From an uncultured Bacilli bacterium (lineage in GTDB: Bacteria; Bacillota_I; Bacilli_A; RF39; UBA660), in the NCBI GenBank assembly GCA_944363935.1, contig CALVVT010000004.1, positions 1-43,181 of the forward strand: a stretch of DNA of 43,181 nucleotides, read 5' to 3'. A model generated the notes under the pieces. It was not told the origin of the DNA. It saw only the letters and a list, made by a program, of their open reading frames with translations, and did not search any database. Shown one piece after another: positions 14,769 to 16,967 of the stretch (its first letter is position 1; each line of letters starts with the position of its first letter). The translations under genes and the position numbers were made by a program.

Positions 14769-14816
14769 AATCCTCACCACAAACATTATAAGTTATTTAC
14801 ATTTTTTTATCAAGTT

Positions 14817-15731
14817 TTACCAATTTTTATTCAAATCAAAATCTTGAGCATAAGAATAATTAATTATTTCACCATTTTTTGTTTTAATCCATCCCTTAAA
14901 CAAATGAGACCAATCTGTTAACTCGCTAGCGCTTTTATTTTTTAATTTTGTTTTTACTTTATCCATAATATTTATCTCTTCTTCTGTAAAAAGTGATAAA
15001 TCATAATCTTGTACGGGTTTAAATAATATCTTATCTTCTTCATTATTAACAAATTCTAAATAATTTTGATGGATTAAAAATTGTAAATATATACTTTGAT
15101 TATCAATAATTGGTCCATAAGTACCATGAGCATACTTTAATGAAGTTATCGGTTTACTAAATTTCTTAAAAGCTTCAAAATCAATAGCAAAAAAATTTTT
15201 CATTATTTGCGTTTTAGTTAAATAATTATTATCTAACATATATAAAAATGCATTAATAGTTTTTAAATCTAATTCAGCTTTTATCAGATTATATATTTTA
15301 TGATAATCATTCTTATTCATTAAATCTTTATTATTTTTTAAAATTTCTAGGAAAGCTGCTTTATTATTTTCAATTTTTTTATAAGTTAACAAAGCTTGCT
15401 TTTGGGGTAAAGACTCTGCCTGTTCATACCTTATAATAGTTCTTTTACTAAAGCCAAGTGCTTTTGCAAATAGATCTTGTGATAAATTATAAGAATTACG
15501 TATTTCCTTTAATTTTTTAAAACTTAATCCATATATATTTAAATATGCATCATAAATTTTATACAATGATTCATTTAAATTATCATTAATTAATTCAGTA
15601 CCACAAACAGAACAATTATAAACTTGTTCTAAAACATTAACTTTTTGATTACGAATAATATAAGTATTATTTTGTGTAGTTAAAAGTGGTTCAACATCTT
15701 TATCACATTTAAAACAATATACTTTCTGCAT
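14817..15731 (-). CDS. Antitoxin: YgiT/MqsA zinc ribbon + XRE HTH + Panacea/SocA-like domain
   Basis: 304-aa antitoxin. The N-terminal zinc ribbon has two Cys pairs (CFKC near 6 and CSVCG near 40) and the beta pattern of MqsA/YgiT. An XRE helix-turn-helix follows (~76-112, YNLSQDLFAKALGFSKRTIIRYEQ), then a helical C-terminal half (~140-304, with YMLDNNYLTKTQIMK, KYAHGTYGPIID, FTEEEINIMDKV and a closing WSHLFKGW). That matches the Panacea (DUF4065/SocA) antitoxin domain, in which the GPI-type motif and final helix recur. The MqsR-like toxin gene lies 20 nt upstream, so toxin precedes antitoxin as in mqsRA. The HTH probably binds the AGGTG/CACCT dyads at 16160-16189. The family calls are by eye but fit together. 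Confidence 0.82.
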   Translation of the reverse strand: MQKVYCFKCDKDVEPLLTTQNNTYIIRNQKVNVLEQVYNCSVCGTELINDNLNESLYKIYDAYLNIYGLSFKKLKEIRNSYNLSQDLFAKALGFSKRTIIRYEQAESLPQKQALLTYKKIENNKAAFLEILKNNKDLMNKNDYHKIYNLIKAELDLKTINAFLYMLDNNYLTKTQIMKNFFAIDFEAFKKFSKPITSLKYAHGTYGPIIDNQSIYLQFLIHQNYLEFVNNEEDKILFKPVQDYDLSLFTEEEINIMDKVKTKLKNKSASELTDWSHLFKGWIKTKNGEIINYSYAQDFDLNKNW

Positions 15732-15751
15732 AAATTACACCTCCCATATAA

Positions 15752-16111
15752 TTAATAACTTTCATGAAACGAAATACATATTACTCCCCTATTATTTAAT
15801 GTTAATTTAATATATACTATTTTTTTGTTAATAAGCTTTTTAAAAATATACACTTCCGAATTCATATCTCTAGTGCTATCACGGTCTCTATCTATTTTGA
15901 TACAATCTTTTACTTCTAAAGAAAGTATATTATTCCAAATATCCTGCGTTTTCATAATTCCAATATCAATTAAAGCTTGTTTAGCTGATACTATTTTCCC
16001 ATTCATATTTATTGTTCTATAGAAAACAAAATAGCAATTTCCCTTTTTTATTTCTCTTTTACTAATATTTAAAAACAATTTTACACTTTCTTTATCTAAT
16101 ACATTAAGCAT
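15752..16111 (-). CDS. MqsR-like toxin (probable RelE-fold mRNA interferase)
   Basis: 119-aa protein. From about residue 38 it follows the E. coli MqsR pattern: VSAKQALIDIGI (MqsR: TTRSALLNADEL), DIWNNILSLEVKDCIKI (MCNVIIGLSESDFYKS), EVYIFKK (DVYRPRL) and VYIKLTLNNRGVICISFHE (VYLKITVIHDVLIVSFKE). This places a Tyr and a Lys near catalytic Y81 and K96 of MqsR. The first ~35 residues are an extra N-terminal part. ATG 16111 is the only usable start, but the GGAG lies ~20 nt upstream, far beyond normal spacing, so toxin translation may be weak. It sits directly before its antitoxin and behind a perfect promoter. Confidence 0.78.
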   Translation of the reverse strand: MLNVLDKESVKLFLNISKREIKKGNCYFVFYRTINMNGKIVSAKQALIDIGIMKTQDIWNNILSLEVKDCIKIDRDRDSTRDMNSEVYIFKKLINKKIVYIKLTLNNRGVICISFHESY

Positions 16112-16152
16112 ATTTTTCTTTTATATCAAATCTCCTTTCTTAATTTACATCA

Positions 16153-16189
16153 ATTATACCCCACCTAATCCAAGGTGTCAATTGTCACC
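16153..16189 (-). promoter_or_regulatory. Consensus promoter and overlapping dyads of the toxin-antitoxin operon
   Basis: Minus strand: -35 TTGACA (16181-16176), 17-bp spacer, -10 TATAAT (16158-16153), both perfect. Two dyads overlap it: CACCT-N6-AGGTG within the spacer, and GGTG-N8-CACC (16174-16189) over the -35. E. coli MqsA binds an ACCT/AGGT palindrome in its own promoter, so these are good candidate operators. The leader to 16111 carries GAAAGGAG far from the ATG. Confidence 0.85.
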
Positions 16190-16286
16190 ATAGGCTATTT
16201 ATCAAGTACTCACATACAACCAAAATTACATTCACACAAAATACTACAAAATTATTGGAAAATAAAAGATGTTGTGATAAAATATC

Positions 16287-16363
16287 ATATAAAAAACTCC
16301 ATTCTTCCTACATAAACCTTTCACGTTCTAAACGTGAAGCTTCGGATTGAACAGAGTTCTTTC
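16287..16363 (-). ncRNA. Candidate stand-alone structured small RNA (~75 nt), unknown family
   Basis: Read on the minus strand, a strong promoter is followed by a closing stem AACTCTGTTC / GAATGGAGTT (16358-16349 with 16304-16295; 10 pairs, two of them G-T), an inner perfect hairpin TTCACGTT-N3-AACGTGAA (16319-16337) and a T6 tract right after the closing stem. That is a complete promoter-structure-terminator unit with no convincing ORF; a 14-codon frame starts about where transcription should start. It does not show the SRP RNA GGAAG/AGCAG signature, nor riboswitch or 6S features known to me. It lies between the YgjV-like gene and the toxin-antitoxin operon. Confidence 0.6.
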
Positions 16364-16369
16364 ATAACA

Positions 16370-16398
16370 ATAATATCATTTTCATAAATTATTGTCAA
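16370..16398 (-). promoter_or_regulatory. Strong promoter of the candidate small RNA
   Basis: Minus strand: -35 TTGACA (16398-16393), 17-bp spacer, -10 TATTAT (16375-16370). The predicted start is about 16363, 5-6 nt ahead of the closing stem. Confidence 0.8.
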
Positions 16399-16484
16399 TT
16401 ACTAGTATATTTCAATACTGGTTTTTTTATACAAAAATCACATGTAAAACTAAATATAATCGAATAAAATAATAAAATTTATAT

Positions 16485-16967
16485 TTACCTATTTTTTTTA
16501 TCAAGTTTTATCATTGCTATAATATTACTAATAAGTAAAATTATTTGGATTATTATTCCGCTATAAGAAACTACATAAATATTATAAATAAGCCAAGTCA
16601 TACTAGTTAAAATCATTCCGTATCTTAAATAAGTAGGATTATTATAATTAATAATAATAGTATAAATAATAGTTGCAATAACTGGTAAAAGACTAAAAAT
16701 AGTATTATAAGTAAAAAGGCCAATTAAAAGAAAAATAATTATAAATAAAATGGTAAAATATTTATTACTTTTTATTTTATAAAATATTAAATTTCTTATA
16801 CCAGAAACCATACTAGTTAAAAACCCCGACAAACCACCTAATAATAAATAATGTAAACTTTTAAAAAAGAAAGCCAATGTTTGCATCAATAATATTTTTT
16901 TAGTTGTTTTCTTAAACATACTTAAAAGTAAGAAAAAGGCATAAATAAATCCTAATATCTGTCCCAT
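16485..16967 (-). CDS. YgjV-like inner-membrane protein
   Basis: 160-aa, very hydrophobic protein with about five to six membrane helices. It opens MGQILGFIYAFFLLLSMF and contains KSLHYLLLGGLSGFLTSMVSGIRNLIFYK, the pattern of the YgjV family (function unknown; possible small-molecule transporter). ATG 16967 follows AGGTGAT; an in-frame GTG three codons earlier is the alternative. No clear terminator follows before the small-RNA promoter. Confidence 0.78.
   Translation of the reverse strand: MGQILGFIYAFFLLLSMFKKTTKKILLMQTLAFFFKSLHYLLLGGLSGFLTSMVSGIRNLIFYKIKSNKYFTILFIIIFLLIGLFTYNTIFSLLPVIATIIYTIIINYNNPTYLRYGMILTSMTWLIYNIYVVSYSGIIIQIILLISNIIAMIKLDKKNR

Follow-up and report, generated by a model that had tools for sequence, protein, structure and literature searches.

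The window analysed here, a stretch of 43,181 nucleotides from the genome of an uncultured Bacilli bacterium, carries between uvrC and ygjV an insert of ~1.7 kb (14817–16492) that comprises a toxin–antitoxin pair and an orphan RNA gene. This insert is missing from the congeners inspected, and in 12 syntenic congener loci uvrC and ygjV lie at most about 50 bp apart or overlap. Repeat comparison revealed a 21-bp direct repeat at its flanks, with a left copy at 14802–14822 and a right copy, 95% identical, at 16493–16513, inside the 3′ end of ygjV. The two protein-coding genes of the insert are both found on the − strand: an MqsR-like toxin gene of 119 aa (15752–16111; Pfam MqsR_toxin, 25.4 bits, slightly below the cut-off of 26.2) and an antitoxin gene of 304 aa (14817–15731) that combines an MqsA-type zinc-binding/HTH region with a Panacea domain (Pfam SocA_Panacea, 52.2 bits, and HTH_3) and that scores 54.2 bits, below the cut-off, against the NCBIfam CxxCG_CxxCG_HTH MqsA family. 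The operon thus formed shares its gene pair and the zinc-binding/HTH/Panacea layout of its antitoxin with MqsR:PanA (PMC10440598), and is in the window a downstream neighbour of the RNA gene, separate from it. It is preceded by a promoter of its own (TTGACA-17-TATAAT, hexamers spanning 16181–16153 on the − strand) and by an operator palindrome, GGTGACAATTGACACC (16174–16189), the promoter and operator together occupying 16153–16189; a 16–17-bp operator motif recurs upstream of several toxin homologues.

The RNA gene lies upstream of this promoter and on the same strand, as an earlier, preliminary description of the locus had it. Its own promoter also proved to be as described there, with a −35 hexamer TTGACA (16398–16393, − strand), a spacer of 17 nt, and a −10 hexamer TATTAT (16375–16370), which together match the consensus at 11 of 12 positions, a TG preceding the −10. 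Only a few of 40 close relatives lack the −35 hexamer, and most close relatives have a −10 that reads TAnnAT. The start predicted from this promoter (~16362–16360) coincides, again as announced, with the beginning of a structured stretch: the 69-nt RNA folds into an outer stem and an inner hairpin with a minimum free energy of −23.1 kcal/mol, versus −11.75 for shuffled sequences (z = −4.05), and a 91-nt version of the RNA gives z = −4.18. The closing stem is indeed present but was underestimated at 10 pairs, as we count ~12 pairs, then three more past an internal bulge. The T6 run reported 3′ of it is found as a U6 tract at 16296–16291 (− strand), where it forms the terminator end of the RNA. 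From the alignment and from pair counts, an operator-like hyphenated dyad, TGACAAT...ATTGTTA (16365–16397), also spans the RNA promoter; its arms are conserved in the closest RNA subtype, some of the changes being paired, and when wobbles were counted to choose its strand, G-U pairs fitting the RNA sense were commoner than the other kind, though not decisively so.

In an Rfam 15 scan of the window, a single match exceeded a curated cut-off, namely RF03075 (DUF3800-VIII), which covers positions 16293–16360 of the − strand over the complete model (1–64) with 55.9 bits, the gathering cut-off of this family being 40.2 bits; our own model, R1, yields 71.2 bits. The preliminary description had held that the structure fits no RNA family and had proposed a covariance-model search as a check; this search, now run, overturns the claim and identifies the RNA as DUF3800-VIII, a family already known. 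Hence, of the “unknown ~75-nt small RNA” initially announced, the promoter–structure–terminator unit, its size (~70–75 nt), and the selection on its pairing stand, but its novelty does not. Covariation was assessed on 40 sequences from Bacilli, Planctomycetota, Bacteroidota, Chloroflexota, proteobacteria, and viral contigs, in an alignment built from sequence (MAFFT) with the structure taken from the Rfam match. Across this set, 23 of the 25 pairs show changes on both sides, 87.8% of the cells of the two helices are paired, and the covariation score amounts to 0.625, falling to at most 0.187 once the partners are slid. The stems covary in relatives, and the selection on outer-stem pairing that had been guessed from the window alone is real by this test, which the preliminary description had itself proposed. 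The GAA and UAG columns are invariant in 40/40 sequences, and the window copy, which reads CGAAG and UGUAGG at these places, displays paired stems around the conserved internal loop GAA / UUAUGUAG. By its score, its two-part stem, and its GAA opposite a GUAG core, which all fit, the window RNA is a member of the DUF3800-VIII family: it has in common with RF03075 a full-length match over the cut-off, identical stems, and the invariant GAA/UAG core, but differs from it in lacking an adjoining DUF3800 gene and in being placed before a toxin–antitoxin operon. A convergent DUF3800 gene is the typical context of RF03075, though this context lies outside the model that defines the family. DUF3800-associated noncoding RNAs were described by Weinberg et al. 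2017, as cited in PMC10910872.

RF03075 is patchily distributed among close relatives, with a match over the cut-off in 29 of 385 genomes of an order-level sample. Loci with an intact partner have the DUF3800 gene pointing towards the RNA, the stop codon of the gene being located within the T-run of the RNA or adjacent to it. Starting from the protein, we gathered 80 genome loci, nine viral loci, and three more, that is, 92 DUF3800 loci searched with our own RNA model, and found the RNA at the end of the DUF3800 gene in 86 of them, in a survey drawn from relatives of RNA-linked proteins, which may miss RNA-free cousins; even the weakest matches (18–22 bits) sit at the expected place. Of the six RNA-less loci, three (L059, L090, and L122) have a contig ending inside or at the gene, L084 is on a contig that stops 74 bp past it, and L190 is an outgroup (27% identical), so that L083 is the sole true gap, with room present and no RNA found there. 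The arrangement is convergent, with the RNA directly 3′ of DUF3800, in all but one of the loci with RNA, the exception being Bacillus mojavensis (L096), whose RNA is served by a promoter of its own and is oriented like DUF3800; in L012, DUF3800 is intact though the RNA promoter is not recognisable. Several units are embedded in type I restriction operons, two of them between hsdM and hsdS (L076 and L078) and others beside hsdS (L077, L092, and L098), and one is found beside AbiU (L072).

The family also shows departures from this layout. In two loci of one genus (L027 and L030), the DUF3800-VIII RNA faces an unrelated ORF of 82–83 aa that replaces DUF3800, has its stop at the RNA end, and has no Pfam match over the cut-off. 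A congener (G394, contig C1) holds two weaker-scoring copies without an adjoining DUF3800 (L032 and L169), each in a repeated cassette with a recombinase-like ORF and a short zinc-ribbon-like ORF. In a divergent RNA subtype (L025, L026, L029, and L033), the promoter stands ~40–60 nt farther upstream and extra small hairpins precede the core. With regard to viruses, the exact DNA pattern of the RNA has no match in viral contigs; a weak RNA match (31.3 bits) occurs at the expected place by DUF3800 in Riemerella phage GRNRAP2 (L189, 4834–4899, −), and roughly a dozen Riemerella phage records contain DUF3800 homologues. A further weak match (L007, 28.5 bits), close to a gene for a ribosomal protein, was excluded as doubtful.

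As for the partner protein, AlphaFold models it with high confidence (pLDDT 94.8), and Foldseek ranks class II RNases H as the closest PDB structures to this model, headed by the archaeal RNase HII 1eke (E 1.3e-5, TM 0.47). A PDB search with the DUF3800 sequence profile gave no match, and fold comparison alone pointed to RNase HII. RNase HII carries an acidic set of the form DE...D...D, which is resembled in DUF3800 by D10-E11, D139, and D189, presumably the putative catalytic residues; all four (D10, E11, D139, and D189) are invariant in 43/43 homologues. On the confidently modelled fold, the DUF3800 partner is thus best described as an RNase HII-like nuclease, the similarity being partial (TM 0.47). 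A published survey likewise reports DUF3800 with an RNase H fold, linked to Cas12 systems and noncoding RNAs (PMC10910872).

Viewed from the RNA, the association is far looser than from the protein. Among the 29 RNA loci of the order sample, DUF3800 is intact in 13, interrupted in three, reduced to 3′ remnants in nine, and missing from four, these categories being judged from flanks of ~1.5 kb and the shortest remnants, of 12–14 codons, being called by eye. The RNAs that lack an intact DUF3800 are not more divergent than those that have one (Mann–Whitney p = 0.24), their pairwise identity being 92% versus 94%. Among close copies, identity is ~94% in the RNA, ~70% in the promoter spacer, and ~47% in the DNA farther upstream. 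The protein without RNA is practically absent and the RNA without protein is common; because of this asymmetry, an RNA acting as inhibitor is the best account of the distribution, a cofactor RNA combined with recent losses of the protein being a possible but lesser one. Such conservation is no proof that the RNAs are still in use, as the orphans may simply be recent losses.

The window copy is such an orphan. No DUF3800 remnant is found 3′ of it, no cognate-type DUF3800 gene was detected in the genome (94.6% complete), and a second RNA copy was not found there, the only other match being insignificant (17.5 bits, at a contig end). On the other side of the RNA, a rightward 8-bp hairpin with a T-run (16401–16428, + strand; fold z = −3.84) has counterparts in relatives: several of those with a DUF3800 gene (e.g., L018, L020, and L036) have a matching hairpin and T-run ahead of the RNA promoter, placed to end the DUF3800 transcript. 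We read the window hairpin as a relic, namely the putative terminator of a lost DUF3800 gene. The RNA itself departs only twice from the consensus of those RNAs whose partner is intact. Most likely, the gene of the partner nuclease was lost or replaced by the toxin–antitoxin cassette in this genome, the orphan RNA gene staying intact.

We propose, with a probability of roughly one half, that the DUF3800-VIII RNA is structured and acts in trans, binding the DUF3800 nuclease and most likely restraining it, and that the window copy was left after partner loss. RNA polymerase would start at ~16361, and an RNA of ~70 nt would fold and terminate, giving one long interrupted stem-loop that presents the invariant GAA/GUAG internal loop. 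In the native setting, this RNA would bind the RNase HII-like DUF3800 and hold the nuclease in check in the manner of an RNA antitoxin, and the pair may act as a mobile unit of defence or addiction. In the window, where the partner is gone, the RNA may be inert or may be protective against incoming DUF3800 copies. A bolder form of this proposal, which we offer tentatively, is that DUF3800-VIII constitutes a pair of RNA antitoxin and RNase HII-fold toxin, distinct from type III systems and travelling in defence islands, whose orphans would be kept as anti-addiction or immunity genes directed at incoming copies.

Sequence cannot separate inhibition from activation, and a required cofactor would also keep DUF3800 always with its RNA. 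The RNA may accordingly serve as an activator or scaffold of DUF3800, for instance in a ribonucleoprotein recognising invader nucleic acid, with orphans as relics in the course of being lost; this is compatible with the near absence of DUF3800 without RNA in this clade, with the RNase HII-like fold, and with the restriction-operon settings, but we consider it rather unlikely, given that over half of the RNAs of the order sample have no intact partner and yet no decay is detected, and that a variable guide segment is absent, the RNA of close relatives being 94% identical. A guide-RNA reading was rejected on this last ground. An antisense action on the convergent DUF3800 mRNA, similar to type I toxin–antitoxin systems, with an mRNA reading through the RNA gene to the terminator upstream of the RNA promoter, would suit the end-to-end convergent layout and the hairpin and T-run that several close relatives carry at the expected end of such an mRNA. 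Antisense action would, however, call for neither invariant residues in the loop nor stem pairs compensated from phylum to phylum, and a simple antisense mechanism is improbable because the RNA of Bacillus mojavensis (L096), co-oriented with DUF3800 and transcribed from its own promoter, is not antisense to it.

Two further readings bear on the window rather than on the family. It is nearly a toss-up whether the window copy is today a non-functional relic, transcribed or silent, which concerns its present use and is compatible with our preferred explanation of the family, a trans-acting RNA restraining DUF3800. In favour of a relic, no DUF3800 lies nearby, no cognate exists in the genome as assembled, and the association with these neighbours is unique to this genome; against it, neither the promoter hexamers nor the stem pairing nor the U-tract shows damage, and the consensus differences number only two. 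That the RNA could be a functional part of the downstream MqsR–PanA locus is suggested by the shared strand and insert and by a distance of only ~110 bp to the toxin–antitoxin promoter, but this is very improbable: the RNA is absent from 9/9 related toxin loci in the family and from two further loci in the genus, and the toxin–antitoxin unit is served by a conserved promoter and operator of its own. Since related toxin loci carry no RNA, membership of the RNA in the toxin–antitoxin locus was rejected, and the adjacency looks like the coincidence of one insertion spot rather than a functional module.

Compared with established systems, the proposed pair resembles type III toxin–antitoxin systems (ToxIN-like) in working only, in that a structured RNA would hold back a protein of the nuclease type. 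In type III systems, the RNA antitoxin is co-transcribed upstream of the toxin and usually consists of tandem repeats, whereas DUF3800-VIII has its own promoter, is convergent and in single copy, and faces a protein that is RNase HII-like rather than of the ToxN fold. Type I systems rely on an RNA that is antisense to the mRNA of the toxin; DUF3800-VIII would suit this by its convergence in nearly all loci, but not in B. mojavensis, where it is co-oriented. In the searchable literature, we found no tested function for DUF3800-associated RNAs. The asymmetry, the RNase HII-like fold, and the position in type I restriction operons lead to a testable hypothesis of defence or addiction based on a nuclease and an RNA, for which the window orphan offers a natural test case: does the RNA alone protect?

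Another RNA of this kind, DUF3800-VII (RF02967), is likewise convergent with a DUF3800 gene and has two copies in this very genome, but it corresponds to a separate model and a separate DUF3800 subtype, and both of its units, which are intact, neighbour cas genes. Two contigs of the genome, C49 and C23 (L192 and L193; L008, 2201–2298, −, and L010, 1227–1325, +), bear two intact DUF3800 genes, each with a convergent DUF3800-VII RNA (58 bits) and each directly upstream of cas6. The two units belong to two similar CRISPR-cas loci, and the C49 unit lies between a CRISPR-type repeat array and cas6.
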